From: Corynebacterium jeikeium
Lineage (GTDB): Bacteria; Actinomycetota; Actinomycetes; Mycobacteriales; Mycobacteriaceae
DNA length: 64,000 nucleotides
NCBI RefSeq assembly: GCF_028609885.1
Contig: NZ_CP063195.1
Coordinates: 1,426,001 to 1,490,000, forward strand
Direction: 5' to 3'
The notes under the pieces were generated by a model, which did not search any database, was not told the origin of the DNA, and saw only the letters and a list, made by a program, of their open reading frames with translations. Numbering within the stretch: position 1 is the stretch's first letter; every line of letters begins with the position of its first letter. Shown in pieces: positions 24,324-56,316 of this stretch. The translations under genes and the position numbers were made by a program.

Positions 24324-24417
24324 ATGCCGGCATTATATCACGTTGACCTGGCATTTTAGAGCAAAGTACTCAAGTTCAGCGGCGCGTCTTCGACGTTGGA
24401 AGCCAAGCGTAAACTCT

Positions 24418-27143: not shown

Positions 27144-27193
27144 GAAAGTAGCCTTTCCCATCCCAGTGCGCGCCAAGCAGACCGGTCAAGTCC

Positions 27194-31566: not shown

Positions 31567-31574
31567 ACCCAGCC

Positions 31575-37379: not shown

Positions 37380-37411
37380 GGGCTTTTCTCGTTTCTCTGG
37401 TGGGTAGGGCC

Positions 37412-38011: not shown

Positions 38012-38029
38012 GATGCCGTCCTTTCAGTT

Positions 38030-38058
38030 TTAGGTTACCCCAACTATACGCATATAGT
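38030..38058. promoter_or_regulatory. Divergent promoter with DtxR-like iron box
   Basis: TTAGGTTACCCCAACTATA (38030-38048) agrees with the DtxR/IdeR consensus TTAGGTTAGSCTAACCTAA at about 13 of 19 positions, with the left half nearly perfect. TATAGT at 38053-38058 is a -10 for the ABC gene, whose ATG at 38066 would then be leaderless; TATAGT on the minus strand (38048-38043) is a -10 for tetR. Iron-dependent repression of both arms is inferred. Confidence 0.6.
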
Positions 38059-38065
38059 CTTAGAC

Positions 38066-39670: not shown

Positions 39671-41262
39671 ACCGCAACACTCCGGCACCCAAGCAGGTGC
39701 GGCCAGGCTTTCCGACGGTGGCAAAACGGCGGATGGCATGGATCGGCGCCGGCTGGGTGCTCGCAGCCCTCGCCGAAGCCACTGCCTACACGGTCCTTGC
39801 CTTCGCGATCCGCGACCGGGGAGGGGTGCTGCCTGTGCTCGCCGCAGCGGCCGTGTCACTGGTCGCCACCGTGCTGGTCTCCCGCAGCGGCTACCTGAGC
39901 GGCGCACGATTGGCCGGCGACCTCTATGCCCAGCTCGGCCGATCTCTTTCCGCCACGAAGTTGTCCTGGTTCACGGCAGAGAACCGTGCACTCGTGACCA
40001 CCGTTGCCGGACGCGGCATACCCGCGCTCATGGGCGTGCCCGCCCATCAGTTGCAGACAGTGATCTGCGCACCGCTTGTACCCGTGCTCATGGTTGTCGC
40101 GGTCGGGTTCGTGTCAGGGGCTGGCGAGGCCTGCGTGCTCGCCCTCCTGCTGCTGGCCGCCTTCGCCACGCAGATGCTCACGCAACGCCACCTGCAACGC
40201 GCCGACGCCGAGCGTCATCGCATCGAGCAGGAGACGGTGCGCGCGACGATGGAATTCGTCGACCACCTCGAACTGATCCGCACCGCAGCCGGCCCCCGAG
40301 GTCTCGTCCGCGCGGATGAGGCTTGGAGGCGACAGGAACAGGCGATGGCGCGCACCAACCAGGCCGCAGCGCCCGCGACCCTTGTGTCCTTTCTCGCGTC
40401 GGTCATGCCCGTTGCCGGGATGCTGATCATGCTCGCTGCTTCTGGAGAGTTCGCGATACCTGAGGCAGCCCTCGCGTTGCTGGTGCTCACCATCCGGGCG
40501 TCCGCCCCGATCGATGAACTCGCCCTCGCCGGGGTCAGCCTCAACGAGGTACGTTCACACAGCTCGGCCTACCATACAGCCGCGATGGCGCCGCGCCTAC
40601 CCGCTCCCGCTGACCCCGTCCCTCCGGCAGGTTCGGAGATCGAGCTCCGCGACGTCGCGCATCCACCCGCGCTCCGCACGATCACCGCGAACATTCCCCC
40701 AGGCGCACGCGTCCACATCGCAGGCCCCAGCGGTGCCGGCAAGAGTACCCTTCTGGGACTGTTGCAGCGCTTCGACGATCCCGCCGATGGAACTGTCACT
40801 CTCGGCGGGGTCTCACTCGCCGCACTTGAGGAGACAGAGATCACCGCAAGAATCGCCTATGTCCCCCAGGACCCCATCGTGCTCACCGGCACTCTCGCCG
40901 AGAACATCAAACTCGGCCGCCCCGAAGCTTCCGACAAGGAGATCCTTCAGGCAGCCGAGCGCGCCCAACTCCGGGAGGTGATCACTCGTGACCCGCTGGG
41001 TATCCACCAGCACCTCGGCATTCACGGGCAGGCGCTCTCCGGGGGAGAACGTCAACGAGTCGCGATCGCACGCGCCCTCCTCAAGAACGCGCCGGTGCTC
41101 GTGCTGGACGAAGCCACCTCCGCTCTCGACACGGCCACAGAACAACGGATCGCTGACACCCTCGCCACCTACGACGGGACTCTCATCTTCGTCACACACC
41201 GCGACCCCACCATCTGGCACCCCAACCGCACCATCACCCTTGAAGGACCACAGCAGGCATGA
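39667..41262 (+). CDS. ABC half-transporter of the siderophore (IrtB/YbtQ-like) type
   Basis: 531 residues. Membrane domain then ABC domain: Walker A GPSGAGKSTLLGLLQRF, Q-loop YVPQDPIVLTGTLAENIKLG, signature ALSGGERQRVAIARAL, Walker B VLVLDEATSALDT, H-loop IFVTHRD. Both this and its partner have a complete set of motifs, so both sites may hydrolyse ATP. It overlaps the following SIP gene in ATGA. Confidence 0.9.
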   Translation: MNRNTPAPKQVRPGFPTVAKRRMAWIGAGWVLAALAEATAYTVLAFAIRDRGGVLPVLAAAAVSLVATVLVSRSGYLSGARLAGDLYAQLGRSLSATKLSWFTAENRALVTTVAGRGIPALMGVPAHQLQTVICAPLVPVLMVVAVGFVSGAGEACVLALLLLAAFATQMLTQRHLQRADAERHRIEQETVRATMEFVDHLELIRTAAGPRGLVRADEAWRRQEQAMARTNQAAAPATLVSFLASVMPVAGMLIMLAASGEFAIPEAALALLVLTIRASAPIDELALAGVSLNEVRSHSSAYHTAAMAPRLPAPADPVPPAGSEIELRDVAHPPALRTITANIPPGARVHIAGPSGAGKSTLLGLLQRFDDPADGTVTLGGVSLAALEETEITARIAYVPQDPIVLTGTLAENIKLGRPEASDKEILQAAERAQLREVITRDPLGIHQHLGIHGQALSGGERQRVAIARALLKNAPVLVLDEATSALDTATEQRIADTLATYDGTLIFVTHRDPTIWHPNRTITLEGPQQA

Positions 41263-42128
41263 CCACCATCCGCCACCGCATCCGCGAACTCACCCAACAG
41301 AACATGCGCCCGGTCTCCACCAACGCCGAAATCACCAGTATCCGCAGCATCGCCCCCAGCTACACCCGCGTCACCCTCACCTCCTCCGACCTGGCCCGCT
41401 ACGAGCCCACGCTGCCCGCAGACGGCATCAAAATCGCCGTTCCCGGAAAGGACGGCGCACCCGAGATCCGAGCAATGACCGTCTCCCGCCGGCCCACACC
41501 CGACACGATCGAGATCGACGTCCTCACACACACGGGCGGTATCCTCGCCCCCTGGCTCACCCACGCTCGCACGGGCGACCGAATCGACGTGCACGCGGTC
41601 CGACGCGAATGGGCACTCGGTGACGACATCACCGAACACATCCTCGTAGCTGACGCTAGCGCGCTCCCCGCAGCAGCCACGATCCTCCACGCCATTCCAG
41701 AAGAGCACCAGGTTCACGCCTGGCTCCACGTCCCAGAAGCCGACGATGGCGTGCTCATCCCCGAGCGCCTCAACCTCCAGCTGCATCCCCACGTCGGCAA
41801 CGCCTGGACACCGATGCAACTCCGCGACGAACTCAACAAAGTACTCCCCTCAATTCCCAGGAACAATGGAGTGCAAGCTTGGCTCGCCGCCGAAGCCTCG
41901 ACTGTCGCCGAGGGGCGACGATGCCTCACAAAGCACGGGCACGACCGCGACCATATGTTCGCCGCGGCATACTGGAAGCACGGTTGCGGCAGCACCGCAC
42001 GCGATGAACGTATCCGACGCGCCTATGTGGAAGCGGTGGCAAAAGACGCCGACCTTACCGACCCGGACACGCGCGCCGACACAGAAATGCTCGCGGACGA
42101 AATGGGTCGAGAGGTTCCCTCCCCCTAG
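41259..42128 (+). CDS. Siderophore-interacting protein (FAD-dependent ferric-siderophore reductase)
   Basis: 289 residues, SIP family. Ferredoxin-reductase-like FAD domain with IRAMTVSRR (the RxxT/SxR flavin motif) and GGILAPWLTHARTGDRIDVH, then the NAD(P)H-binding half ending with AAAYWKHGCGSTARDER. It would reduce imported Fe(III)-siderophore to release iron in the cytoplasm. It is the third gene of the rightward iron operon. Its last four bases overlap the convergent MFS gene. Confidence 0.93.
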   Translation: MTTIRHRIRELTQQNMRPVSTNAEITSIRSIAPSYTRVTLTSSDLARYEPTLPADGIKIAVPGKDGAPEIRAMTVSRRPTPDTIEIDVLTHTGGILAPWLTHARTGDRIDVHAVRREWALGDDITEHILVADASALPAAATILHAIPEEHQVHAWLHVPEADDGVLIPERLNLQLHPHVGNAWTPMQLRDELNKVLPSIPRNNGVQAWLAAEASTVAEGRRCLTKHGHDRDHMFAAAYWKHGCGSTARDERIRRAYVEAVAKDADLTDPDTRADTEMLADEMGREVPSP

Positions 42129-43558
42129 CGTGCTGTTCGAGCTTTTCCAGTGACGAAGAGCACGGTCACGGTGCCGATGACGGTAAGCGCGGCGATTCCT
42201 AGTACGAGCCAGCGGGCGGCGGCGAGTTGGCTTGCGCTCCCGAGGGCGAGAAGGTTTCCTGCGATCGCGGAGGTAAGGGTAAACGCGATCAATTGGGTCG
42301 TGCTGACGGCAGCTGCCGCTTTCGCACCCTCGGTTTCGTCGTCGCTACTGCTCATTGCTGCGACTGAGAGATGCGGGAAGGCGAGCCCGATTCCGATACC
42401 AGCGATCAACAGCATGACCACCCATAACACAACGATGAACGCCGTGGCGTGCACAGCTTGCAGTACTCCGTAGCTTGCCAGGCCCACGGTGAGGAGCACT
42501 GGACCGGTACGAGTAAGTCTGCGAGCGATCTTCCCCGTGGCGTTCGCGCTGAAGAGCTGGGCAACAACCCACCCCAACGACAGAACCGCGCCGAGCAGTC
42601 CCGCCAACAGTGGGGAGAGGTTCGCGAGTTGCTGGCCGAACAGGGGGATGAAGTTCTCGACCATCACGCCCGCGCATAGCGCCGCTACCGTGAGATATAC
42701 CCATTTGAGTTGGTTGCAACGGGCATAGGTGAGCCTAGGAAGCACGCCGTTGGCGTCGCGTGCATCGACGGCAAGAAACACAATGAGAAGGAGCAACCCT
42801 GCGCCGACCATGACCGGCACCCAGAAGGTTGAGAGGGTCGAGCTGAGGCTGAGCGTTGCTGAGGTCAGGGCCAGTGCAATGATCGACGGAATCGGGACGC
42901 GCAACCGGATCGACTTCGCAGGTTTCCGTCGCGGCAGGGCACGTAGCGTCACGACCGACAGGATCACCGCAAGTGCGGCGAGCACTCCGAATGCTGCTCG
43001 CCATGCGTTGAGTTCGGCGAACACGCCGCCAAGTGCAGGCCCCACGAGGGTGCCGATGCCGAACATCGCGGACACCACTCCGGTACCACGAGTCCACAGC
43101 GTCTGCGGCAGCACGCTTCGGATCACGGCGTACCCAAGACCGGTGAGTAGGCCTGCGCCAAAGCCTTGTACTGCTCGCCCGGTCACGAACAGTTCCATCG
43201 TCGGGCTTGCTGCGCTGATGAGAGTCCCGGCAGCGAAAAGCAGGTACGCGGTGACGTAGGTGTGTGCAGCGCCCTGAGTGGTGAGCATGCGGCTCACGAA
43301 CATCGTCGCGATCACTGCGGTGATCAGATACCCGGTTGACGCCCAGGCATAGTATTGCTGGCCACCGATCTCAGCGACCACAGTTGGCATGAGGGCTGCG
43401 GTGAAGTATAGGTTCATCGCGTACAGGCCGACCCCGCTGGCCATGACGATGACTGCCGTTAGGTGCGGCTTCGAGAAGAGAGCGCCCCATCCCGATTTGG
43501 GTGTTAGAGGAGTGCTGGATGTGGGCTGTGGCTGATGTTCTGGTGTCGATGAGGTCAC
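42125..43558 (-). CDS. MFS multidrug-type exporter (DHA2-like), SoxR-controlled
   Basis: 477 residues, about 14 hydrophobic segments, with motif-like blocks GRAVQGFGAGLLTGLGYAVI and MFGIGTLVGPALGGVFAEL typical of drug:proton antiporters. GTG start at 43558 has no Shine-Dalgarno; the -10 hexamer TAGTGT ends eight bases upstream, so the mRNA is probably leaderless. Its promoter overlaps the SoxR box, so export of redox-cycling compounds is the likely role. Confidence 0.88.
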   Translation of the reverse strand: MTSSTPEHQPQPTSSTPLTPKSGWGALFSKPHLTAVIVMASGVGLYAMNLYFTAALMPTVVAEIGGQQYYAWASTGYLITAVIATMFVSRMLTTQGAAHTYVTAYLLFAAGTLISAASPTMELFVTGRAVQGFGAGLLTGLGYAVIRSVLPQTLWTRGTGVVSAMFGIGTLVGPALGGVFAELNAWRAAFGVLAALAVILSVVTLRALPRRKPAKSIRLRVPIPSIIALALTSATLSLSSTLSTFWVPVMVGAGLLLLIVFLAVDARDANGVLPRLTYARCNQLKWVYLTVAALCAGVMVENFIPLFGQQLANLSPLLAGLLGAVLSLGWVVAQLFSANATGKIARRLTRTGPVLLTVGLASYGVLQAVHATAFIVVLWVVMLLIAGIGIGLAFPHLSVAAMSSSDDETEGAKAAAAVSTTQLIAFTLTSAIAGNLLALGSASQLAAARWLVLGIAALTVIGTVTVLFVTGKARTAR

Positions 43559-43565
43559 ACCGGCT

Positions 43566-43596
43566 ACACTAGAACTTCAAGTCAACTTGAAGTCAA
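43566..43596 (-). promoter_or_regulatory. SoxR box in a 19-bp-spacer promoter for the MFS gene
   Basis: The perfect inverted repeat ACTTCAAGT-CA-ACTTGAAGT (43574-43593) matches the SoxR operator core (CCTCAAGTTAACTTGAGG in enterobacteria). It lies between -35 TTGACT (43596-43591) and -10 TAGTGT (43571-43566), spaced 19 bases. The long spacer is the hallmark of MerR/SoxR-activated promoters. Confidence 0.88.
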
Positions 43597-43608
43597 GGAG
43601 TCGCGAGT

Positions 43609-44076
43609 ATGAGTTATGCACCGACCGATCTCCTCACTGTTGGCGAGGTTGCTCGTCGTGCCGGGATCGCCACGAGTGCGGTTAGGTTCTATGAGGATCA
43701 GGGGCTGATTTCTTCTGTTCGTACAGCTGGGAACCAGCGCAGGTATCCGCGTTATGTGCTTCGCCGGATCGGAATCATCACCGCCGCCCGCCGTTTCGGC
43801 ATTCCACTGGCCGAAGTCGCCCAAGTATTCGACTCACTTCCTGAGAATCGGATGCCAGGAAAGACCGACTGGCGCAGAATCTCCAAACGTTGGCATGAAC
43901 GACTTGAGGTGCGACGGAGGGAACTTGAACGTCTTGAAGAAGAACTAGTGGGGTGCATCGGTTGTGGGTGTCTCTCACTCAATACATGCCGCGTGCTCAA
44001 CCCTGACGACCAGCTTTCTTCCGAAGGCCCTGGCGCGAGGAGATTGCAGTATCCCTCGGGAGTTGACGCACAATGA
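43609..44076 (+). CDS. soxR: SoxR redox-sensing transcriptional activator
   Basis: 155 residues, MerR family. The HTH region reads LTVGEVARRAGIATSAVRFY, followed by a dimerisation helix. The [2Fe-2S] cluster motif CIGCGCLSLNTC (C-x2-C-x-C-x5-C) is complete. The oxidised cluster would twist the promoter DNA and switch on the divergent MFS gene. In actinobacteria SoxR responds to redox-active metabolites rather than superoxide. AAGGAG at 43594-43599 precedes the ATG. Confidence 0.95.
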   Translation: MSYAPTDLLTVGEVARRAGIATSAVRFYEDQGLISSVRTAGNQRRYPRYVLRRIGIITAARRFGIPLAEVAQVFDSLPENRMPGKTDWRRISKRWHERLEVRRRELERLEEELVGCIGCGCLSLNTCRVLNPDDQLSSEGPGARRLQYPSGVDAQ

Positions 44077-44179
44077 GCCGTCTCAGCTGTGATCGCATAG
44101 GATGCCTCACCGAGTCGTGCGGCTCGAGAATCGTTCATAGACTCAACTCCCCTCCGACGCTGTTTCCGTCATTGACCAT

Positions 44180-44452
44180 TCAGGAGCCCCTTGGCCTTCT
44201 CCGCGTTCTTCGCGCTAAGAGCGTCTTCTGAATGACTTTCCGGAGCCGAGCAAGCCCACGTTCGAGTTGACGGGGATCAGGGCGTCCGATGCAGATACGG
44301 AGACCTGAGGCCTCATTCAAGGGGTCAGTGCTCATAGCCGCTGGAGGCGTGACGAGGGCGCCTTCGCGCGCGACGGAATGTGCGATTTCCTCGGCTTGTC
44401 CCCGAACCATCGGGAGCCAAAGGTGAAAACCGCCAGACGGGTGGAACGGGAT
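44180..44452 (-). pseudogene. C-terminal fragment of a MocR/PdxR-type (GntR-aminotransferase) regulator
   Basis: The minus strand reads SGGFHLWLPMVRGQAEEIAH and on through GLRICIGRPDPRQLERGLAR, the end of the aminotransferase-like domain in MocR regulators. The N-terminal 350 or so residues are absent; the fragment stops at the clpP-like start. From 44077 to 44179 nothing is seen. Confidence 0.8.
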
Positions 44453-44870
44453 GAGCAGCTACACCATTCCCAATGTCATCGCGCAGCACCCACGCGGTGA
44501 ACGCATTATGGACGTATATTCCCGCCTACTCACCGAACGCGTGGTCTATTTGGAAACTGGGATCGACGCAGGCGTCGCCAATGCCCTGATCGCGCAACTG
44601 CTGTATCTCGAAGCAGACAGCCCGGATCGCGACATCCAGCTCTACATCAACTGCGAAGGTGGTGGCCCTAGTGCCATGCTCGCCATCTACGACACGATGA
44701 AGTTCATCAAGCCCAGCATCGCAACAACATGCGTCGCTCAGGCGGTATCGGTCGGAGCGGTACTACTGACAGCTGGCGCGCCAGGCAAACGTGCCGCGCT
44801 GCCGCACGCACGGATCGTGCTCCACCAGCCAGCCGCTCAAAGCCGAGGAACAATCCCCCATCTGATCCGC
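44451..44870 (+). pseudogene. ClpP-like serine peptidase, truncated at the hsdM junction
   Basis: 140 codons match ClpP: ERIMDVYSRLLTERVVYLET, DRDIQLYINCEGGGPSAMLA, a modified nucleophile block AVSVGAVLLTAG (usually ASMGA), and the histidine region ALPHARIVLHQP. The gene is cut at 44870 in RGTIPHLIRD, so the last 55-60 residues including the catalytic aspartate are missing. The frame runs 30 bases into antisense hsdM. It looks like an accessory clpP paralogue, not the housekeeping gene. Confidence 0.85.
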
Positions 44871-45491
44871 GACGTTAATGTTCTTCCCCGGCTCGAATAG
44901 ATCCTCGCTTCCTTCTGCTAGCCCTAGGCGCACAAGGAGGCGAACTACTTCTCGCGGCGTGTAGTGGTCACCAGCCTCCGCGTTCTCAGAAAACCTGCGG
45001 ATGAGTTCTTCGAACATGTAGCCCATGGCAACGTTGTTGATGCGCTCAGGGGCCAAGTCGAGCTCAGAAAACTTGCGGACAACACCCGTGAGGCGTGAGC
45101 CCTTGTGCATCTTGTCGATTTGAGTGAAGAAATCGAGGCCCTCATTCTTGTCGAGGATCATGCGGATGTTCGGGGAAAACGCTTCAAGATAGGTCTTCAG
45201 GTTGCGGTGTAGTTGTGCAGGTTCTGCTAGTAGTTTCTCTAGGGTGTAGCGGCTCGTGTTGTAGAACGGGTATCCGCTGACCTGCTTTAGGATCGCGTCG
45301 GGTGTGGAGTCGTCTTGCTCGTAGACCGTGCAGACAGCATCTTTCGTTTCTTCTAGGGCGCATTCGAGCCTTCGAATGATGGTCATCGGAATGATGACGT
45401 CTTTGTATTTGTCGGCTTGGTATGTCCCGCGTAGCGAGTTGGCGATGCTGAATACGTGATCAACTTGCTTCTTGACGTCAATCTGAGACAT
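44871..45491 (-). pseudogene. hsdM: HsdM, 5' segment (codons 1-207)
   Basis: Begins MSQIDVKKQVDHVFSIANSL at ATG 45491 and contains the HsdM N-terminal helical domain (YKDVIIPMTIIRRLECALEE) and AGDHYTPREVVRLLVRLG, the segment leading to motif I. It ends at KNINV. If translated it would read on into foreign DNA as ADQMGDC and stop after about 36 codons. It lies 13 bases behind the XRE gene as part of the ABC-3C operon. Confidence 0.93.
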
Positions 45492-45504: not shown

Positions 45505-45747
45505 TTAAGCTTCTTCTTTAGGGATGATTGTGACAATGTCGCCGATCTGGCAGTTGAGGACCTGGCAGATGCGTAGGAGCACGTCGGTGGTGACGTTGTC
45601 GCCGTTGTTGAGCCTGGCCATCGTGGTGGACGACAGTTTGGCTTCCTCGCGCAGGTCTTGCTTGAGCTTCTCCTTGTCTACCAGCAGCTTCCACAAGGGT
45701 TTGTAGGAGGCTTTGACTTGGAGGTCGAACTCTATTCGTTTACTCAC
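45505..45747 (-). CDS. XRE/Cro-type helix-turn-helix regulator of the operon
   Basis: 80 residues from GTG 45747, which overlaps the ATPase stop by eight bases. HTH core KQDLREEAKLSSTTMARLNN and VLLRICQVLNCQIGDIVTI is typical of short Cro/C1 proteins found with restriction systems. Translationally coupled placement between the DUF2326 ATPase and hsdM links the two systems. Role as controller of hsd or of the whole operon is inferred. Confidence 0.85.
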   Translation of the reverse strand: MSKRIEFDLQVKASYKPLWKLLVDKEKLKQDLREEAKLSSTTMARLNNGDNVTTDVLLRICQVLNCQIGDIVTIIPKEEA

Positions 45748-47401
45748 TGTCGTTAGCCTTCCTCTTTTTCTTTTTGCTCCACGACCGGCCAAACAGCTCT
45801 CGTCCGGGTTCAAGATGGATGAATGCTGACTTAGTCAAGATCTGTCGGGTTTCCTCCGAGTAGCGGCTGATTTTGTCGATCGCGAGGAAAACCTGTTTTC
45901 TCTGACGTGCATACACCTGCGCGATTCCGTCGAAGGCTTGGTCTTCGATTGGTTGGACGAGCATCGAATCGTGGGCGACTGCAGGGAGAAGCGTGGTTTC
46001 CAGCATTGCTAGATCGAATGAAATCAGGCCGCGTTGGGTAGAGCCCGTTCCTGAGTCGTTCTCGATCTCGTAGGAGTATTTGTCGATCGCTGGGATCTGG
46101 ATGCTTGGTGGGGTTCGTTCCTCGCGGGTGATTTCCCCATCTAGGCGCTGCATCGCTCCGTTGAGCTTGTATTCGATGTCTTTCAGGATCGATTCGGATG
46201 CTTCGTCGAGCGCTTCGGAAGCTTGCTTCTTGGCTTCCCTGAGTCGCTGCTCGTCATGGAAAGCCTTGTTGGCGTTGCGCAGTGATCTGATCTGGCGATC
46301 GAGTTCACTGTAGGCACGGATATCGGCCTGCGTTGCCGTGGGCGCGACGGAGAGATCCTCGAGGCGGGCGCTGAGTTGGTCAAGACGCTGCTGAATTCGC
46401 CCACGTTCTTCTTCCAACTGCTTGGTTTCTGCTTTGAATTCGGAGTCCAGAACCTGACGGATACTGCGGTGGAAATGCTCGATGCTCTCGATGTGTTCGA
46501 TATTTGCCCCTGGGAAGAACTCGCGCAAGGAATCGAACTTCTTGGTCAGGTTGACCTCAGATGAGATCCCCTTTGCCTGTCGCATGGAGTTGATCTGTCG
46601 ACCGATCTGGTTGAAGCGCCGCAGCAAGGGCTCGCGTTCTGCCTGCACCTCGTTGATGGCTGCCTGTTGAGCTGAGGTGTAATCCTTTGCAGTCAATCCT
46701 GCGCGGAGTCCTGCTTGGTCGCGTTCGGTCTCGAGGTCTTCGATTCGCTGGGTGTTGTTTTTGACCTCGGTGACGTTCCTTGCTCGGGGGAAGTCGTAGT
46801 AGCGCCCGGCGGCATTGAACAGATCAAGCTCTCGAACAGCCTCTTCCTTAGCAGCCATGAAGCCTTGAAGCTTGGTGTACTCATCAAACAGCTTCAGGAG
46901 ACGCTTGACGCCGTCAGCCTGGGTGTCTCGCGGGTACGCAAGAAGCGGGTGGTCGACATCGGAGTTCTTCCGTTGCCAGATGCGGAAGAAGTTGCTGACT
47001 GCTTGACGGAGCGTGATGCCAGTTTCTTGAAGTCCATACTGGGTGCCGACAAAGCCCTTGAAGTCCTCAAGCGTCATGGTGCGCAGTGCTCGGTATTCCT
47101 TGTCGCACAAGGTAACCGCGTTGGGGGTGTCAGTGGCTCGCCGGAAGTAGTGCGTCTCGCCTCCGAGAAGGAACGCGAAGCGAATCTCGTGATGCCCAAT
47201 GTTCTTGACGACATCCTTGGCTTTGTCGATGTAGTCAGAACCGCCGAAGCAGAAGTCGATGGCCAGCAGCGTGGTGGACTTTCCGATTGAGTTTTCAGTG
47301 TTTTCCGTGCCGAGAACCGTGTTGAGTCCTTCTTTTAAGCGCAGCGGGCCGGGGCGTTGTTTGTCGTGAAAGAACGCGTCACTGTCAAACTCGACCAACA
47401 T
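45740..47401 (-). CDS. DUF2326 SMC-like ATPase of an ABC-three-component system
   Basis: 553 residues from ATG 47401. The N-terminus carries an unusual Walker A within GLNTVLGTENTENSIGKSTT, characteristic of DUF2326 ATPases, followed by LLAIDFCFGGSDYID. A long central coiled coil (about 190-430; for example RIQQRLDQLSARLEDLS) suits an SMC/Rad50-like arm. The DUF2326 C-terminal lobe holds ISFDLAMLETTLLPAVAHDS and QVFLAIDKISRY. Such proteins act with a small middle component and an effector in conflict systems. It overlaps the middle component by 17 bases. Confidence 0.85.
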   Translation of the reverse strand: MLVEFDSDAFFHDKQRPGPLRLKEGLNTVLGTENTENSIGKSTTLLAIDFCFGGSDYIDKAKDVVKNIGHHEIRFAFLLGGETHYFRRATDTPNAVTLCDKEYRALRTMTLEDFKGFVGTQYGLQETGITLRQAVSNFFRIWQRKNSDVDHPLLAYPRDTQADGVKRLLKLFDEYTKLQGFMAAKEEAVRELDLFNAAGRYYDFPRARNVTEVKNNTQRIEDLETERDQAGLRAGLTAKDYTSAQQAAINEVQAEREPLLRRFNQIGRQINSMRQAKGISSEVNLTKKFDSLREFFPGANIEHIESIEHFHRSIRQVLDSEFKAETKQLEEERGRIQQRLDQLSARLEDLSVAPTATQADIRAYSELDRQIRSLRNANKAFHDEQRLREAKKQASEALDEASESILKDIEYKLNGAMQRLDGEITREERTPPSIQIPAIDKYSYEIENDSGTGSTQRGLISFDLAMLETTLLPAVAHDSMLVQPIEDQAFDGIAQVYARQRKQVFLAIDKISRYSEETRQILTKSAFIHLEPGRELFGRSWSKKKKRKANDSE

Positions 47402-47618
47402 AGTGGAGCACCTCCTCCGGGTAGAGCAGCTCGATCTGGCCGAGTGCGAATAAACAGTCCAACGTGTCGACGAACTCGTCCACGTCGGCAAACTTTGATT
47501 TGACCTTCTTGTATAAGGCAGCGGGACTGAGATCCTGATCGGACAGATGCGTCAGGATCGGTGGAAACTGGCTCAGTGTGGACTGCGAGTAGGGGGTGAC
47601 CTTGCTAGGCAATCGCAT
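47385..47618 (-). CDS. ABC-three-component middle component (MC6-like)
   Basis: 77 residues, MRLPSKVTPYSQSTLSQFPP to EEVLHYVGRV. A small helical protein with LYKKVKSKFADVDEFVDTLD CLFALGQIELL, fitting a degraded winged helix as in MC6 middle components. Start ATG 47618 lies inside the end of the effector gene behind GAGGTG; GTG 47630 is an alternative. It overlaps both neighbours (14 and 17 bases), showing tight coupling. Confidence 0.72.
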   Translation of the reverse strand: MRLPSKVTPYSQSTLSQFPPILTHLSDQDLSPAALYKKVKSKFADVDEFVDTLDCLFALGQIELLYPEEVLHYVGRV

Positions 47619-48843
47619 CGAACACCTCACAGTTTTGAACGAAGAAGCACGTCACGATGACCGACGCGCTGAGGTTCACAGAGTCGGAGTTGGTGTGGAT
47701 CCAATCAGCAACTTGATCGAATATCGCCTGCTGGTCGTCAGTGTGCTGGGACGCCTGGTCGTAAAAGTCGGCGACTTGCCCGGCGATCGCGTCGAATCTG
47801 CTGCGACCTCTGACGCCCTCGAGAGAGCGGAACTCTTGCTCGATGATGCGATACCACTTCAAGACATGAATCTTGATCCGCTCGGCGAGCTCAAAATACT
47901 CGGGCCTGACCTTTTCAGCGACTCGCACCGCGTCCAACGTTAGCTCCGGGATGACTCCGGTGACGATGCGTTCCCCAAGCGTTTCGATGACAGAGGCGAT
48001 CGCTGGGTGGAGTTGCGAATCGAGCGCGGTGTCCTGAAGTGCTGTTGCAGCAATCCTACGATTTCGAATGTCTCGGAGCTTGTTTACGACATCAGACACT
48101 TCAAGCAACGTGTCATTGGTGGAGACCTGTTTGGCGCACTTGACACACACCGCTTCCCGGTCGGTCTCAGCGCTGCCGTCGCCAATGGTGAAAGAGACAA
48201 TCTCGAAGAATGGTCGCCGTTCGCCTTTGACAGTTTTGACTAGTCGCTCTTTGCGGCAGACAGGACACAAGTCTCCATTGCGGGCTGCAAGCACGACATC
48301 CGCTTCGGTTACGCCATTGTTGGCTCGCTTCTTGTTCGTTCTCGAAATGGCAGATAGGAACGTGTCGGCATAAAAAGACACGTCATCCTGGTCTGCGGTG
48401 TACAGCAGGTCTTCTGCGGCGTCGGCACTGACTTCGGGATCATCTTTGATCAGTTCGATCAGCTCGGCTTTGAAGTCGCTCTCGCGCATGGGCGCAATAT
48501 CTTGGGCGATCTTGCCGAACGCTTCACGTGCAGCCCCACGTAGTCCCGGTTGCTTCAGAACGGGCCCGAAGCCGGTGTGCAGCTCGACGTCCTGCTTGAG
48601 TAGCCCACTTACAGTCTTGGGCGTGCGCCACACGTCGAATCCATCCCTGTCGGCAACTGGAGCGAAGTCCTGAATCCAGCGCAAGAGCACCTCTACGACG
48701 TAGGCGTCGGTTGAGGTCATCTTTGGTCGCGCCGTCGACGGCTTCTTGGCTCCCTGCCTGGTCGGAGTGGTGTAACTCGCTGCTGGCTGGATGAGCACCT
48801 TTTGCAGGGCGCGCGCAAAGGTCGCGAAGCACAGCTGGCTCAT
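47605..48843 (-). CDS. ABC-three-component effector / C-terminal-domain protein with zinc-finger cysteines
   Basis: 412 residues; ATG 48843 follows GGGAGG by seven bases. No classical enzyme motif is certain. A central block has paired cysteines LCPVCRKERLV and AVCVKCAKQVS, a C-x2-C/C-x2-C zinc ribbon or HNH-like treble clef. The C-terminal 150 residues (VVNKLRDIRNRRIAATALQD and following) resemble the ABC-3C C-terminal domains that couple an N-terminal effector to the ATPase. First gene of the leftward operon. What it does to DNA, RNA or protein is not readable. Confidence 0.7.
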   Translation of the reverse strand: MSQLCFATFARALQKVLIQPAASYTTPTRQGAKKPSTARPKMTSTDAYVVEVLLRWIQDFAPVADRDGFDVWRTPKTVSGLLKQDVELHTGFGPVLKQPGLRGAAREAFGKIAQDIAPMRESDFKAELIELIKDDPEVSADAAEDLLYTADQDDVSFYADTFLSAISRTNKKRANNGVTEADVVLAARNGDLCPVCRKERLVKTVKGERRPFFEIVSFTIGDGSAETDREAVCVKCAKQVSTNDTLLEVSDVVNKLRDIRNRRIAATALQDTALDSQLHPAIASVIETLGERIVTGVIPELTLDAVRVAEKVRPEYFELAERIKIHVLKWYRIIEQEFRSLEGVRGRSRFDAIAGQVADFYDQASQHTDDQQAIFDQVADWIHTNSDSVNLSASVIVTCFFVQNCEVFDAIA

Positions 48844-50178: not shown

Positions 50179-50597
50179 ACGTCACCGAAGCGAACCGCTA
50201 CATCCCGGCGCTGAACCGGATCGCGGAGGGGGTCACGATGCTGGCCTCTGCGATCGAAGAGGCCGCGTGGGAATCGTTCGAGGATCACCCTGGTATGTCG
50301 GGGGCTCGCCCGATCGCCGCAGCCCAGCTCGCCCAGCCAGCACTGGAAGCTGCAGCCGAAGAGTACGTAGCGGCTCACCAGCCGCCAGCCCCGGAACCTG
50401 CCCCGGCCCCGGTCCCGGAGGTTGTGCGGGTGACGTTGGAGCAGGTCCGCACGGTGCTAGCGCGCCTGTCACAGGCAGGCCACACCGCGCAGGTTCGTGA
50501 GCTCATCCAGGCCGCTGGCGCGAACAAGCTCTCCGAGGTTGACCCCTCCAAGTTCGGGCAGCTGCTGGAGCAGGCGGAGGCGATTGCTGATGCCTGA
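50175..50597 (+). CDS. Hypothetical phage protein with Pro/Ala linker
   Basis: 140 residues from GTG 50175. A helical N-terminal part is joined by a Pro/Ala-rich linker (PPAPEPAPAPVPE) to a C-terminal domain VRTVLARLSQAGHTAQVREL that recurs in actinophage early proteins next to DUF2800 genes. Function unknown. It overlaps the DUF2800 start by eight bases. Confidence 0.7.
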   Translation: MNVTEANRYIPALNRIAEGVTMLASAIEEAAWESFEDHPGMSGARPIAAAQLAQPALEAAAEEYVAAHQPPAPEPAPAPVPEVVRVTLEQVRTVLARLSQAGHTAQVRELIQAAGANKLSEVDPSKFGQLLEQAEAIADA

Positions 50598-51723
50598 CCA
50601 GCACGCACTGCTCAGCGCCTCGGGAGCACACCGATGGCTTGCCTGCCCGCCGTCGGCAACGCTGGAGGCCGGGCTACCGGAGTCCACCTCGCAGGCTGCC
50701 GAGCAAGGAACCGCAGCTCACGAGCTCGCGGAGTGGAAGCTGCGCCGAGCACTCCATGACGCTCCGACCACGAAGCCGGTCTCGAGCTGGCATGACGAGG
50801 AGATGGATGCCCTGACGGATGACTACGTGGCCTTCGTTCAGGAACGGCTGCGTGATGTGCGGCAGGTGTGTGCTGATCCGCAGGTGCTCATCGAGCAGCG
50901 CCTGGATTTCTCCCATGTGGTGCCGGGTGGGTTCGGTACCGGCGACTGCGTGATCATCGCCGAGCCCACGCTTCAGATCATCGATTTGAAGTACGGCCAG
51001 GGTGTCATGGTCGAGGCCGAGCACAATCCGCAGCTCATGCTCTATGCCCTCGGAGCGTTGAACGCGTTCGGGTCGCTGTACGACATCAACGAAGTGGCGG
51101 TGACGATCTTCCAGCCGAGACGCTCGAACGTCTCAACCTGGAGGGCTCCGGTGGCCGAGCTAGAGGCGTGGGCGGAACAGGTCGTCAAGCCTCGTGCCGC
51201 GCTGGCTGCCAGCGGGGATGGCGAGTTCGCTCCTGGTGAGTGGTGCCGGTTCTGCAAGCTCGCACCCACTTGCCGGACGCGCGCCGAGGCGAACCTTGCG
51301 CTTGCCAAGTACGAGTTCGCACCCCCTGCCGAGTTCAGCGATGCCGAGATCGCACAGGTGTTGGCCCAGCTTCCGGACCTGAAGGCGTGGGCTGCCGATG
51401 TGGAAGCGCACGCGCTGTCGCTGGCGGTGAACCAGGGCAAGACCTGGCCGGGGTTCAAGCTCGTCGAGGGCCGCTCGATCCGCAAATACTCCGACGAGGC
51501 CGCTGTCGCCCAGACAGCTGAGGCAGCCGGTGTCGACGTGTGGGATCGCAAGCTCAAGACCATCACCGCGCTGGAGAAGCAGCTGGGCAAGAAGCGCTTT
51601 TCCGATCTCCTCGGGGACCTCGTGGTCAAACCCGCTGGTAAGCCCACGCTGGTGCCCGAGTCCGATAAGAGGCCCGCACTGGAGATCCAGTCGGCAACAG
51701 ATGAATTCACTGCAATCAAGTAA
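50590..51723 (+). CDS. DUF2800 (RecB/Cas4-like) phage nuclease
   Basis: 377 residues from ATG 50590, MPDQHALLSASGAHRWLACP. The DUF2800 signature is clear: GFGTGDCVIIAEPTLQIIDL gives D...DLK of the PD-(D/E)XK core, then YGQGVMVEAEHNPQLMLYAL. A cysteine pattern (WCRFCKLAPTCR) may hold an iron-sulfur cluster as in Cas4. Phage recombination or replication exonuclease is the expected role, beside the DUF2815 DNA-binding protein. Confidence 0.88.
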   Translation: MPDQHALLSASGAHRWLACPPSATLEAGLPESTSQAAEQGTAAHELAEWKLRRALHDAPTTKPVSSWHDEEMDALTDDYVAFVQERLRDVRQVCADPQVLIEQRLDFSHVVPGGFGTGDCVIIAEPTLQIIDLKYGQGVMVEAEHNPQLMLYALGALNAFGSLYDINEVAVTIFQPRRSNVSTWRAPVAELEAWAEQVVKPRAALAASGDGEFAPGEWCRFCKLAPTCRTRAEANLALAKYEFAPPAEFSDAEIAQVLAQLPDLKAWAADVEAHALSLAVNQGKTWPGFKLVEGRSIRKYSDEAAVAQTAEAAGVDVWDRKLKTITALEKQLGKKRFSDLLGDLVVKPAGKPTLVPESDKRPALEIQSATDEFTAIK

Positions 51724-51748
51724 CGAACAAGAAAGTAGGTAAGACAAG

Positions 51749-52303
51749 ATGTCTGCAACAAATCCGACCCGTGTGGTCACCGGCGAAGTTCGCCTGTCCT
51801 ACGCCAACATTTTCGAGGCAAAGTCCATCCAGGGCGGCAAGCCCAAGTACTCCGTGTCCCTGATCATCCCGAAGTCTGACACCGAGACCCTGGCCAAGAT
51901 CGAGCGCGCCATCGACGCGGCGATCGACGCTGGGATTGGCAAGTTCGGTGGCAAGCGCCCGAACAAGGCCGCCTTGAAGCTCCCGCTGCGTGATGGTGAT
52001 ATCGAGCGCGATGATGAGGCTTATGCGAACGCGATGTTCGTCAACGCCAACTCGACCACCCCACCCCAGGTCGTGGGTACGGACCTGCAGCCGATCCTGG
52101 ACGCCAACGAGGTCTACTCGGGCTGCTACGCGCGAGTGAGCATCAGCTTCTACGCGTTCAACACGAACGGCAACCGGGGTATCGCCTGCGGGCTGGGCAA
52201 CATCCAGAAGCTGCGTGATGGCGAACCGCTCGGCGGCAACCGGATCAGCGCAGAGGCCGACTTCGGAGGCTTCGCAGCAGCCTCGGACGACTTCCTCAAC
52301 TAG
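51749..52303 (+). CDS. DUF2815 single-stranded-DNA-binding-like phage protein
   Basis: 184 residues, begins MSATNPTRVVTGEVRLSYAN and shows KPKYSVSLIIPKSDTETL and YSGCYARVSISFYAFNTNGN, the DUF2815 pattern with an OB-like strand order. It normally accompanies DUF2800 and a family A polymerase in phage replication modules, as it does here. Confidence 0.88.
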   Translation: MSATNPTRVVTGEVRLSYANIFEAKSIQGGKPKYSVSLIIPKSDTETLAKIERAIDAAIDAGIGKFGGKRPNKAALKLPLRDGDIERDDEAYANAMFVNANSTTPPQVVGTDLQPILDANEVYSGCYARVSISFYAFNTNGNRGIACGLGNIQKLRDGEPLGGNRISAEADFGGFAAASDDFLN

Positions 52304-52320
52304 AAGAGCGGAGAAGCATC

Positions 52321-52530
52321 ATGAACGAGTGTTATTCAGCAGCGCTGTCCGCAAACACCACCACAGTCGTGGCACTGCTCGTTGGCGCTGTCCTCGGTCT
52401 CATCGTCATCAAGGTCTCCTCTGTGATTGCCGAACGGCGGGCAATCCGCCAGGATCGCAAGCGCATCGACAAGCTCATGGCTGATACCGAGGCTGAGCTC
52501 GAGAAGTACCGCGCTGACCACGACCGCTAA
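52321..52530 (+). CDS. Small single-pass membrane protein
   Basis: 69 residues. One hydrophobic segment (TVVALLVGAVLGLIVIKVSS) followed by a charged helix (RQDRKRIDKLMADTEAELEK). GGAG lies before the ATG. Unknown function. Confidence 0.65.
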   Translation: MNECYSAALSANTTTVVALLVGAVLGLIVIKVSSVIAERRAIRQDRKRIDKLMADTEAELEKYRADHDR

Positions 52531-52540
52531 CCCTTCACCC

Positions 52541-52591
52541 GTGCTGGGAGGACACCACGCCCACTTCCGGGAGGTGGTCTCCTCCCAGCAC
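52541..52591 (+). terminator. Strong stem-loop before the DNA polymerase gene
   Basis: GTGCTGGGAGGACACCAC pairs with GTGGTCTCCTCCCAGCAC with one mismatch over 18 bases and is followed by CCCATTGTTTTCT. It sits inside an otherwise continuous rightward operon, so it may be a partial terminator that lowers polymerase expression or a processing site. Confidence 0.7.
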
Positions 52592-52617
52592 CCATTGTTT
52601 TCTAGGAGCTGTCGCGC

Positions 52618-54579
52618 ATGCGTGAACTCTTCATTGACATCGAGACCTTCTCACCGGTGAACCTGGCGAATTCCGGGGTGTACCCCTACGCCGACCACGA
52701 CGGCTTCGAGCTCCTGCTGTTCGGTTACTCGATCGACGGCGGCCCGGTCGAGGTCGTCGATCTCGCCAACGGACACCAGCTGCCCGAGAAGGTGCTGTCC
52801 GCACTGGTTGACCCGCTCGTAGTGAAGTGGGCGTTCAACGCCACGTTCGAGCGCATCTGCCTTTCAAGCTGGCTCGCCCGACAGTACCCGGAGCTCATGG
52901 CGGGCCGCAGATTTCTCAATCCTGCGCAGTGGCGCTGCACCATGGTCTGGAGCGCATACCTCGGCCTGCCGATGAGCCTGGACCAGGTCGCCACCGTCCT
53001 TCACCTGCCGGTACGCAAAGACAGTGCAGGTAAGAAACTCATCCGCCAGTTCTGCACCCCGGGCACACCCAGCGTCTTCAACCTGGGCGGGATGCGCAAC
53101 CCGCCTGCGTCCGACCCGGACGGGTGGGAGCAGTTCATCTCCTACAACCGGCGCGACGTCGAGGTGGAGCTCGCGATCCACGACAGGCTGGCTGACTTCC
53201 CGCTCCCAGCGTCCGAGTGGGACACCTACGCCCTCGACCAGAACGTCAACGACACCGGCATCCGGCTCGACCGGGTACTCGTGGATCACGCGGTGGCATG
53301 CGACCGGCAGCACCGCGCCACCACGCTTGCCCGGGCACAAGAGCTCACGGGACTGGAGAATCCGAACTCACCGATCCAGCTCAAGGACTGGCTCGCCGCT
53401 CACGGCGCGCCCTTGCAGTCACTGACGAAAGACGAAGTCGCCGCCGCGCTCGACACCGCTACCGGCCAGGTGCGTGAGGTCCTCTTGCTGCGCGGTGAGC
53501 TTGCGAAGTCGTCGGTGAAGAAGTACGAGGCGATGCAGCACGTGACAGGTCGTGATGGGCGCGGACGAGGGTTCCTCCAGTTCTACGGGGCAGGACGCAC
53601 CGGACGTTTCGCTGGCCGCCTCGTCCAAGTCCAAAACCTGCCCCGCAACTACCTACCAGACCTGGCCGAGGCCAGAAGCCTCGTGCGGACCGGAGACTTT
53701 GAAGCCGTGGAGCTGCTCTACGACTCCGTACCCGACACCCTCTCGCAGCTCATCCGCACTGCTTTCATCCCCGCCGACGGGCACCGGTTCGTGGTGGCCG
53801 ACTTCTCCGCGATCGAGGCGCGGGTCATCGCGTGGCTTGCAGGCGAGACCACCACGCTTGAGGCCTTCCGTGACGGGAAGGATTTGTACTGCGAGACCGC
53901 GAGCCGCATGTTCGGTGTCCCCGTCGACAAGCACGGAGCCAACGCCGAGCTGCGTCAGAAGGGCAAGATCGCTGTGCTCGCCTGTGGCTATCAAGGCGGC
54001 GTCGGAGCTCTGAAAGCCATGGGGGCGCTGCGGATGGGGCTCGCCGAGTCCGAGCTCCAGCCGCTGGTCGATGCGTGGCGGGCAGCCAACCCCAGCGTTG
54101 TGCAACTGTGGGCCGACATCAACGCCGCCGCCATCGAGACGATCAGCACCCGCCAGCCGACCAGTGTTGGTGCGCTGACCTTCACCGTGGAGTCCGGGAT
54201 CATGTTCATCCGCCTGCCCTCCGGACGTCGCCTGGCCTACGTGAAACCCAAGCTGGGTGAGAACAGGTTCGGTGGCACCAGCATCACCCACGAGGGCATC
54301 ACAACGGGACGCAAGTGGGGCCAGTTGGAAACCTACGGTGGGAAACTCACCGAGAACATCGTCCAAGCCGTCGCCCGAGACCTGCTCACGTACGCCATGC
54401 ACCAGGTCGCTGAGGCTGGGCACAGGATCGTCATGCACGTCCATGACGAGATCGTCGTGGAGACCGCCACGGCCACCGTGGACGAGATCTGCAAGCTGAT
54501 GTCCACCGCGCCCGACTGGGCAGCAGGGTTGCCGCTAGAGGCAGACGGGTACGCGTGTGATTTCTACATGAAGGACTGA
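52618..54579 (+). CDS. Phage family A DNA polymerase with 3'-5' exonuclease
   Basis: 653 residues; GGAG lies before the ATG. The N-terminal DnaQ-like exonuclease starts LFIDIETFSPV with the DxE pair. The polymerase core has motif A VVADFSAIEARVIAWLAGE, motif B RQKGKIAVLACGYQGG and motif C VMHVHDEIVVE. No 5' nuclease domain, as is usual for phage enzymes of this type. The 3' end overlaps the convergent Ymh gene by 16 bases. Confidence 0.95.
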   Translation: MRELFIDIETFSPVNLANSGVYPYADHDGFELLLFGYSIDGGPVEVVDLANGHQLPEKVLSALVDPLVVKWAFNATFERICLSSWLARQYPELMAGRRFLNPAQWRCTMVWSAYLGLPMSLDQVATVLHLPVRKDSAGKKLIRQFCTPGTPSVFNLGGMRNPPASDPDGWEQFISYNRRDVEVELAIHDRLADFPLPASEWDTYALDQNVNDTGIRLDRVLVDHAVACDRQHRATTLARAQELTGLENPNSPIQLKDWLAAHGAPLQSLTKDEVAAALDTATGQVREVLLLRGELAKSSVKKYEAMQHVTGRDGRGRGFLQFYGAGRTGRFAGRLVQVQNLPRNYLPDLAEARSLVRTGDFEAVELLYDSVPDTLSQLIRTAFIPADGHRFVVADFSAIEARVIAWLAGETTTLEAFRDGKDLYCETASRMFGVPVDKHGANAELRQKGKIAVLACGYQGGVGALKAMGALRMGLAESELQPLVDAWRAANPSVVQLWADINAAAIETISTRQPTSVGALTFTVESGIMFIRLPSGRRLAYVKPKLGENRFGGTSITHEGITTGRKWGQLETYGGKLTENIVQAVARDLLTYAMHQVAEAGHRIVMHVHDEIVVETATATVDEICKLMSTAPDWAAGLPLEADGYACDFYMKD

Positions 54580-55385
54580 TATTGCTGGGCGGAATCGAGG
54601 CGACGATGGACATAGGAGAACAAGCTGAAGGCATCGAGGAAGTCATGTTTACCTTCCTCACTACCTAGTCGGGTTTTGTGAGCGCGGGGATTGCGATAGT
54701 GCCCGTGGATCCCTATAAGCAGGTTCTTAAAACCCTTGTGCTCTGATTTTTCCGACTCCGTGGAAAAGCTATTAATCACGAGCTTAGGGGCAGAATTGTT
54801 TGTTCCCAAAGCTGCGTCGAACAACTCCTGACCATCGTCTGTCAAGCTAGTAAGGATGCGGATGCGGTCAGGGATCGACTTGGCTGCCTCGGATATCGCG
54901 TGGAACAGAGACTCCGCGATCAGTTCTTGGCTGCAATACTCCATTAGGCGTTCGTGGGTACCGCGCCGCTGAAGTTCCTCCACGAGAGAGCTGGTGAGAC
55001 GCTCGATATCATCGAATGTGCGTGCCGCCTCAGCGAGTTGGGTCAACTCGCCAGCATCGTCGATATGCCATCCTTCGGTCGCCAGCACCTTGTTGAGCAA
55101 GCGGCGCAAATCATTCCAACGCTGACGATCGGTGGTATGCCGTGCCGGGCTCATCGCAGTCGTTATGAACTCACGAGTGAGTTGACCTGCTTGCGCTGCG
55201 GACATTCCTTCCGTAAGCGCGCCAAACAGTCCTTCTCGCTTACTCCCGGCAACACGCGGTGGCGCACCAATGTCGAGGAGAAGCTCGTCGATTTGGCTTC
55301 CGCTTAGGCCCGGCAAATCGGTACTTGCCAGGACATTCGCAATACTGCGGATAGTCGAGCGTTGGGAGAAAGAATCGGACTGCAT
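54564..55385 (-). CDS. TIGR02391/Ymh-family protein, possible HEPN abortive-infection factor
   Basis: 273 residues from ATG 55385 behind GGAG; GTG 55388 is also possible. The C-terminal half carries the Ymh signature: ELIAESLFHAISEAAKSIPD, FDAALG, and GIHGHYRNPRAHKTRLGSEE, in which R-N-P-R-A-H fits the HEPN R-x4-H pattern. It lies opposite to all surrounding phage genes, between polymerase and antirepressor, with slightly lower G+C, so it is a cargo (moron) gene. A role in excluding other phages is inferred. Confidence 0.8.
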   Translation of the reverse strand: MQSDSFSQRSTIRSIANVLASTDLPGLSGSQIDELLLDIGAPPRVAGSKREGLFGALTEGMSAAQAGQLTREFITTAMSPARHTTDRQRWNDLRRLLNKVLATEGWHIDDAGELTQLAEAARTFDDIERLTSSLVEELQRRGTHERLMEYCSQELIAESLFHAISEAAKSIPDRIRILTSLTDDGQELFDAALGTNNSAPKLVINSFSTESEKSEHKGFKNLLIGIHGHYRNPRAHKTRLGSEEGKHDFLDAFSLFSYVHRRLDSAQQYQSFM

Positions 55386-55548
55386 CACCGCTCCAGCTTC
55401 TCATGTGAGCGAGTGGCCTGAGTATTTCAGCAAGACCCGGGTGTCCGGATTCTTGCGCGCTCAGGGGCGTATGCGTGAGAGCCCGACGCGGCCGCACCCG
55501 TGGCTTGCTGGAATTCACGTCAATCCTGGCTCTTAGAAGGAGCCAGTC

Positions 55549-56316
55549 ATGGCTACGAGAGATCTTCAGGTATTCACCAACGATGCCTTTGGAACGATCC
55601 GAACTGTCGAGCATGAGGACAAGGTGTATTTCTGTGGCCGTGATGTGGTCACGGCGCTTGGATACACCAATACCAGCAAGGCGATTCAGGATCATTGCCG
55701 TGGGGTTCCGTTTCGTTACCCCATCGTCGATGCGCTCGGGCGCACTCAAGAAGCCAGGTTCATCACCGAAGGTGACCTGTACCGGCTCATCTTCTCCTCC
55801 AAGCTCCCCGCAGCCCAGGACTTCGAAGCCTGGGTTGTCGACGAGGTCCTCCCCACGATCCGCCGCCACGGCGTGTACGCCATCGACGAGCTGTTGGACA
55901 ACGACGAGTTCCTCGAGCGTGCCATCGTCCAGCTTCGCTCCGAGCGAGCCAAGCGACTAGCGGCCGAGCAAGCCCTGCTCGAGGCCGCCCCGAAGGTCTC
56001 CTACTACGACGTGGTGCTGCAGTCGGATTCCCTGCTGACCATCACGGAGATCGCCAAGGACTATGGGCTGTCAGCGAAGAAGCTGAACTTGCTGCTGCAC
56101 GACGCCGGGGTGCAGTTCAGGCAGTCCGGCCGCTGGTTCCTCTACGCCCGGTTCGCCGAGCAGGGCTACACGCAGTCCAAGACCCACGAATACGACGAGG
56201 GCAAGACCCGCACGCACATGTACTGGACCCAAAAGGGCCGTTTGTTCGTCTACGACTTGTTGAAGAACCAGTTCGGCCTGCTGCCGGTCATCGAACAGGA
56301 CGGCGGTGCGGCATGA
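55549..56316 (+). CDS. Phage antirepressor (BRO-N + KilA-C)
   Basis: 255 residues, ATG behind AGAAGGAG. BRO-N domain at residues 8-105 (VYFCGRDVVTALGYTNTSKA, AWVVDEVLPTIRRHG), then a coiled linker, then a KilA-C/ANT domain (TITEIAKDYGLSAKKLNLLL, YTQSKTHEYDEGKTRTHMYW). Such proteins counter the lysogenic repressor. It overlaps the next gene in ATGA. Confidence 0.93.
   Translation: MATRDLQVFTNDAFGTIRTVEHEDKVYFCGRDVVTALGYTNTSKAIQDHCRGVPFRYPIVDALGRTQEARFITEGDLYRLIFSSKLPAAQDFEAWVVDEVLPTIRRHGVYAIDELLDNDEFLERAIVQLRSERAKRLAAEQALLEAAPKVSYYDVVLQSDSLLTITEIAKDYGLSAKKLNLLLHDAGVQFRQSGRWFLYARFAEQGYTQSKTHEYDEGKTRTHMYWTQKGRLFVYDLLKNQFGLLPVIEQDGGAA

Follow-up and report, generated by a model that had tools for sequence, protein, structure and literature searches.

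The question raised by this locus is whether a set of putative defense genes of the ABC-three-component (ABC-3C) type and the type I modification genes that it adjoins form a single defense unit and, if so, what each part contributes. The locus lies in a stretch of 64,000 nucleotides from Corynebacterium jeikeium (contig NZ_CP063195.1, positions 1,426,001 to 1,490,000), hereafter called the window, whose own numbering is used throughout unless a contig position is stated. On its minus strand, four genes encoding an effector, a middle component, a DUF2326 ATPase, and an XRE regulator run into hsdM, the gene for a type I modification subunit. Judging from gene content and gene organization, we think it somewhat more likely than not that these four genes constitute a self-contained and portable accessory cassette of modification-based defense, with type I genes being one kind of partner among many. 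Four things are directly observed: the gene order, the tight spacing, the repeated exchange of partners, and, in the prophage family to which the locus belongs, a cassette edge at the XRE end.

A four-gene cassette preceding type I genes

The first gene, here called the effector (positions 47605 to 48843; 412 amino acids), ends in the C-terminal domain CTD11 (PF20277, E 4e-48) and is followed by the middle component MC7 (47385 to 47618; PF20292, E 1e-24), a Rad50/SMC-like ABC ATPase of the DUF2326 family (45740 to 47401; PF10088, E 7e-11), and the XRE gene that closes the cassette (45505 to 45747; HTH_26, E 9e-17). Consecutive genes overlap by 14, 17, and 8 bp, lengths that depend on the start codons we picked, and hsdM (HsdM_N, E 1e-20) starts at 45491, leaving a gap of 13 bp behind the XRE gene. 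The packing reported in an earlier note on this DNA, with overlaps of 8 to 17 bases and hsdM 13 bases farther on, was reproduced by these measurements. The core proteins are those of an ABC-3C system, with scores of 42.5 bits for PF10088 (cut-off, 28.7), 86.6 bits for MC7 (cut-off, 27), and 163.8 bits for the terminal CTD11 (cut-off, 27.7). CTD11 was also matched, at E 0.01, in all 59 members of our alignment of long effectors (A4). Searching 396 genomes of the window's phylum with the CTD11 profile and 301 genomes of its family with the effector protein returned the window's own match only, and the effector found one weak match in the plasmid collection and none in the phage collection.

The earlier note had suggested searching other genomes for this gene order; from the effector to hsdM, it recurs in all five close relatives whose sequences reach that far. 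It continues through hsdS and hsdR without a visible break in a viral contig (L005/L012) and in Tissierella (L073). Arcanobacterium (L072) has the same seven-gene order with the specificity gene in two open reading frames, and Corynebacterium silvaticum (L074) has it with the effector, ATPase, and hsdM genes interrupted; in L006 the order runs to hsdM, where the sequence ends, and L007 is a shorter contig ending in MC7. All four close relatives of sufficient length (L005/L012, L072, L073, and L074) thus carry hsdR after hsdS, and the type I sets of L005 and L073 are complete by domain content (HsdM, Methylase_S, and HSDR_N plus SWI2_SNF2), the HsdM of L073 being recognized by an iterated profile only. 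This tight packing agrees with the proposal that ABC-3C and type I genes were one unit, and such coupling recurs well beyond type I systems.

The division of labor proposed along with it fares differently. According to that version, HsdM and HsdS would only mark self and the ABC-3C set would take the place of HsdR, as the lack of an hsdR beside the window cassette had suggested. The hsdR genes of the four close relatives contradict modification and specificity subunits acting without HsdR, the window hsdM is itself cut, and several other partners come with their own restriction enzyme; we consider this version highly improbable. No hsdR indeed stands beside the window cassette, but because the relatives carry the full order from effector to hsdR, we attribute its absence to local loss or damage.

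DNA similarity between the window and L006, L074 (90%), L005, and L073 extends through the cassette and ends at 45519 to 45533 (minus strand; blastn end points), that is, at the end of the XRE gene, whereas similarity to L072 continues to 44866. Beyond the XRE gene, the window hsdM is 96% identical to that of L072 versus 40 to 43% identical to those of L005, L006, and L073 (these four were compared), and L006 and L073 share hsdM at 94% and the ATPase at 75%. Because similarity stops at this edge while hsdM diverges, and given the mismatch between L006 and L073, the cassette and the type I genes move separately, with the XRE end as the boundary.

Modification systems of many types adjoin the cassette

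Further relatives were collected by ATPase-based scans, which gave 61 viral loci and 79 genome loci (the genome collection being represented by the best 80 of 158 relatives). With the loci found earlier, 146 had an ATPase match, and 125 were retained after removal of identical ATPase cores. These were classed by effector extent into 80 long (at least 330 amino acids), 12 middle, and 26 short, with 7 having none or a fragment. Partner counts refer to loci with at least 1 kb of downstream sequence.

A modification-type partner adjoins the cassette in 52 of the 66 long-effector loci (51 without L084, whose partner gene matched no family and was counted on our reading alone) and, counted by clusters at 90% ATPase identity, in 41 of 52. 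It lies on the same strand less than 130 bp away in 47 of the 66, with gaps of −37 to +118 bp. As labeled by us, the partners are type II (18), type I (12), type III (5), NOV_C-helicase (4), BREX (4), converging type I (3), and type III-like (2) systems, plus one each of DUF499/DUF1156, phosphorothioation-like, and Druantia-like systems and the L084 gene. NCBIfam gave matches for only one of ten unassigned partner genes, all far under the cut-offs. The proposed tie to HsdM and HsdS is therefore too narrow, as the same four genes also precede type II, type III, BREX, phosphorothioation-like, and other modification systems, and the partner is exchangeable. Two extra samples, for which loci were picked with the CTD11 profile in place of the ATPase, gave the same picture, with a partner in 10 of 11 long-effector loci (L182 among the ten apparently being the same contig as L149) and in none of three others.

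Sister operons with short effectors have a partner in 1 of 23 cases, and that one (L087) is a long effector in two pieces whose ATPase groups with the long-effector loci in the tree. Pfam matches of neighbors at nine short-effector loci comprised PIN, lysozyme-like, YhcG nuclease, AbiEi, Schlafen, nucleoside deoxyribosyltransferase-like, and three DUF families and no restriction-modification (RM) family; BLAST searches of up to three neighbors per short locus against the labeled partners gave named matches only to the genes of L087 itself and to a recombinase. ABC-3C operons that never neighbor hsdMS had been named beforehand as evidence that would speak against a joint unit. The short, HNH-bearing half of the family is such a group, with no partner, by our labels, in 22 loci once L087 is set aside, and the long-effector half is not.

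The XRE gene directly follows the ATPase gene in 60 of the 66 long-effector loci and, in most type III-like loci seen, marks the 5' edge of the cassette. This placement would suit a cassette whose main role is control, in which the XRE protein would delay or induce the toxic restriction genes of the partner and the ATPase would act as its switch; RptR, a small repressor of type I loci, offers a precedent (PMC12255303). However, regulation needs neither a Rad50-like ATPase nor MC7 nor a protein of 400 amino acids, and the three-gene ABC-3C core occurs without XRE in the short group. Alignment of the upstream regions of the close relatives established no operator. We regard a mainly regulatory role as unlikely.

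Three loci with near-identical ATPases (L020, L058, and L080) differ in what follows the cassette: L020 and L058 have an unassigned gene beside the XRE gene, next to which L058 has a C5 methylase, and in L080 TetR and ABC transporter genes come after the same cassette, as would be expected had its partner been lost.

Features of the effector and the ATPase

The window effector consists of an N-terminal region of about 190 amino acids, a Cys4 zinc finger of the HNH type that lacks the HNH histidines, and the C-terminal CTD11. All 24 short effectors in the alignment (L087 and L100, the other two of the 26, lacked sufficient length) keep both histidines and the asparagine, whereas no long effector among 80 (78 loci plus the window and L007, the split L092 and L093 being omitted) has the AHxxP motif, which is present in one middle effector (L009) of 11. 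Of these 80 long effectors, 7 have a histidine at the first position and 9 have one at the last, while each of the four cysteines is kept in 73 to 79 of them. The HNH profile was matched by 5 of the 59 aligned long members. Compared with solved structures, the effector alignment matched mostly HNH-type chains at profile positions of about 120 to 250, the best match being 5-methylcytosine-specific restriction enzyme A (E 4e-6).

These features bear on another explanation, in which the cassette would guard its partner as an abortive-infection device that fires when restriction is inhibited or overrun, the effector killing the cell through its N-terminal region. The RM guardians PrrC and PARIS, as well as the PrrC relative RloC, which is triggered by DNA breaks, have been described (PMC12707154), as have abortive ABC-3C/Lamassu systems (PMC10586767), and such a role would fit partners of every type. 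Yet conservation in the N-terminal region of the 59 long effectors is mainly hydrophobic, with few polar positions common to at least half of them, and therefore no catalytic site is evident there; the 17 families matched among these members were C-terminal domains, HNH and zinc-ribbon profiles, and single weak matches. Pfam listed no anticodon nuclease or TOPRIM domain, the hallmarks of RM guardians, for the cassette proteins, and partners of differing types would have differing inhibitors. We accordingly rate the guardian explanation as somewhat unlikely.

The window ATPase has the Walker A motif NSIGKS and a putative Walker B motif that ends in DK, not DE, and no CxxC hook was found in it. 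Most relatives have lost this second acid, and the DK ending occurs in 63 of 89 long and middle rows. A profile made from the ATPase alignment matched no solved structure at E 0.01.

Strength of the association

In a tree of 119 ATPase rows (FastTree), most short effectors fall on one side. When loci are grouped by the HNH motif, a partner is present in 50 of the 73 that lack it and in none of the 23 that have it. On the tree, partner presence changes 16 times; among the 54 rows that have a partner, its type changes 22 times.

Several observations weigh against the reading that long-effector cassettes as such accompany modification systems. Fourteen of the 66 long-effector loci have no partner, and in the middle class only 2 of 12 do, 6 having a coupled DUF4238 gene instead. 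One short-effector locus counted as having none (L114) shows, by eye, a methylase-like gene at a distance of 424 bp. We assigned the partner labels ourselves from clusters and from Pfam on representatives, and some type II labels rest on a C5 methylase neighboring an unassigned gene. A replaced Walker B residue is also seen in 16 of 30 rows with an effector extent below 276 amino acids (four of them fragments), and the change is therefore not specific to long-effector cassettes. Loss of the HNH motif amounts to two changes on the tree and one well-supported independent pair, and the contrast thus comes down to one old split, with too few pairs for a statistical test of the link between motif loss and partner gain. 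Cruder length-based classes, with fragments taken as short and L009 as long, gave four pairs, with values of 0.7 in one direction and 0.5 in the other.

Defense genes gather in islands, and the adjacency described here could reflect that habit with no joint function behind it, as the partnerless loci and the untestable motif link would allow. Island clustering would not, however, readily account for partners in the same slot and on the same strand at the short gaps given above in 47 of 66 loci versus 1 of 23 sister operons, nor for partner swaps at the XRE end within the prophage family, and we consider it quite unlikely as the whole explanation.

Within the middle class, six loci (L104, L109, L126, and L136 to L138) have a first gene without the zinc finger and a coupled DUF4238 gene, five of them also having a serine recombinase, and no modification system.

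A possible role in self-marking immunity

If the four genes are indeed an accessory cassette, it would sit 5' of whichever DNA-modification or restriction system is available and would probably be expressed with it, the joint operon probably being controlled by the XRE protein. The Rad50/SMC-like ATPase, MC7, and the CTD11 protein may form a Lamassu-like DNA sensor; sensing of DNA ends or hairpins by Lamassu has been described (PMC12904381 and PMC10586767). Because the marks of the partners are chemically different, the mark itself is probably not read by the cassette, which more likely senses shared products of attack on unmarked DNA, such as ends or stalled DNA, and would then strengthen the partner as a second line. 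The HNH nuclease site of the cassette appears to have decayed, and cutting has therefore probably been left to the partner or taken over by the N-terminal region.

A broader hypothesis, which we advance tentatively, is that the cassette accompanies self-marking immunity in general, as an ABC-3C sensor with a decayed nuclease that works only with a marking-and-cutting partner, plugs into type I, II, and III, BREX, and phosphorothioation systems, and reads a common product of attack rather than the mark.

Relation to known systems

The closest likeness is to ABC-3C systems with MC7 and CTD11, which were reportedly described by Krishnan et al. in 2020 and which share the order of effector, middle component, and DUF2326 ATPase as well as all three Pfam families. 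The present cassette differs from them in its zinc finger without HNH histidines, an added N-terminal region of about 160 to 190 amino acids, a fourth gene (XRE), and a customary position in front of modification systems. The abstract of Krishnan et al. is said to state that ABC-ATPase effectors act alone or alongside RM systems, and the coupling as such is therefore not claimed here as new; a literature search pairing DUF2326 with restriction found nothing.

Lamassu/DdmABC systems likewise have three components in the same order, and the cassette ATPase matches the PADLOC profiles LmuB (E 6e-9, over a partial stretch) and, slightly better, PDC-M68B (E 4e-9). The Walker B acid is replaced in both, from E to Q in LmuB (PMC10586767) and by K in the cassette ATPase. 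Unlike Lamassu, the cassette has an effector and MC7 without a PADLOC match to LmuA, LmuC, or any other profile at E 0.01, an ATPase without the hook, and a coupled partner system.

PrrC, RloC, and PARIS are likewise linked to restriction, and PrrC and RloC reportedly carry an ABC-type ATPase. They differ from the cassette in that it is a multigene unit, has neither an anticodon nuclease nor a TOPRIM domain listed, and has partners far beyond type I. An ABC-type ATPase is also present in PARIS (PMC12839542). That paper surveys BREX auxiliary effectors, which resemble the cassette as ATPase-linked modules beside BREX genes and differ from it in being described with ATPases of the OLD type; its main text does not use the terms three-component, ABC-3, or Lamassu. 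RptR and DarTG2 in a type I locus (PMC12255303) similarly combine a small regulator and a second defense module in one unit, while the second module of the cassette is unrelated and its partners are of many types.

Remains of two type I systems in the window

The unit in the window is a remnant: the hsdM brought by the prophage is truncated, and the hsdS and hsdR that belonged to it are missing. What is left of the cassette's hsdM encodes residues 1 to 208 (44866 to 45491, minus strand), and the match to relatives ends at 44866-44865, which corresponds to residues 208-209 of 694 in L072. A truncated clpP fragment (44451 to 44900, plus strand; CLP_protease, E 7e-44) abuts the break; the genome has two further clpP genes elsewhere. 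Searching the window by tblastn with hsdS of four relatives and hsdR of two returned no match at E 1e-3, and a complete hsdM/hsdS/hsdR set for the cassette's own type I system was not found in the window. Elsewhere, the genome has one other type I hsdR, 35% identical to that of L072.

A second, resident type I system lies farther along. Its hsdM from motif I onward (31521 to 32780, minus strand; N6_Mtase, E 1e-80) shares 94 to 97% identity with its counterparts in five other genomes of the genus and 79% with that of a sixth (21 of 242 genomes, the window's own included, matched at E 1e-60). It is split by a Mutator-family transposase gene (30181 to 31530, plus strand; PF00872, E 1e-118) from its C-terminal part (29423 to 30220, minus strand), which was recognized by its DNA match to same-genus hsdM loci and has no Pfam match of its own. 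The resident hsdS (28572 to 29426, minus strand; Methylase_S, E 1.3e-5) overlaps this last piece by 4 bp. It is presumably the hsdS that the earlier note described as overlapping the cassette's hsdM; the overlap is real and belongs to a different system, so that two broken type I systems had been merged into one. The two are separated by 12 kb of other genes, with hsdS 16 kb away from the cassette's hsdM. We rejected this hsdS as a candidate for that of the cassette, and also the possibility of one hsdM split by a single insertion, as the pieces are 96% identical to L072 and 94 to 97% identical to same-genus resident hsdM, respectively, and a prophage end is located between them.

Downstream of the resident hsdS, an OLD-like TOPRIM ATPase, a UvrD-like helicase, and a DUF5655 gene stand in a row (23400 to 27176, minus strand), with resemblance to a Gabija-like pair.

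A prophage carries the cassette

As read from the junctions and the displaced start of the resident hsdM, a prophage of about 60 kb, with the cassette as cargo at one of its ends, has integrated at the motif I codons of this gene. The missing start is found at contig positions 1519348 to 1519857 (98% identity), with a second copy (89%) 11 kb farther on. The insertion junctions are GTTTATGA/AAC and GTGCGA/CCCG (slashes marking the junction), with GA in common, and the other prophage end lies at about contig position 1519289 (L214). Near the displaced start are, by eye, two large serine recombinase-like genes encoding 532 and 497 amino acids; serine-integrase elements that disrupt hsdM are known from streptococcal integrative and conjugative elements (PMC4701971). 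The end on the attR side, a 79-bp stretch (32761 to 32839, minus strand), has an 89% identical counterpart in L072, located about 130 bp past hsdR, and L074 has a matching stretch (74 bp, 88%) in a like place. The related prophage end of L072 lies against a reading frame of a different kind, which starts with MCEPFLGTGTF and by eye resembles motif I of another methyltransferase. Phage replication genes for DUF2800, a single-stranded-DNA-binding protein, DNA polymerase A, and a D5-type primase/helicase (50497 to 59017, plus strand; Pfam and blastn) travel alongside the cassette in relatives.

Two further regions of the prophage may be mentioned. Positions 32840 to 44865 span about 12 kb and take the place of what in relatives is the remainder of hsdM plus hsdS and hsdR; they hold, mostly by eye, transporter-like, MFS-like, and MerR-like genes and the truncated clpP, with a minus-strand, IS transposase-like frame at the far end. 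Amid the phage replication genes, a gene at 54564 to 55388 (minus strand) matches PD-Lambda-3_B (E 1e-48) and Hypoth_Ymh and is a candidate defense gene.

Implications

If the cassette is indeed a general companion of self-marking immunity, one DNA-sensing module would serve restriction systems that share no chemistry, and what modification-based defenses have in common that can be sensed would become testable in one cassette with exchangeable partners. Some annotated restriction-modification operons would then omit four genes of the functional unit.

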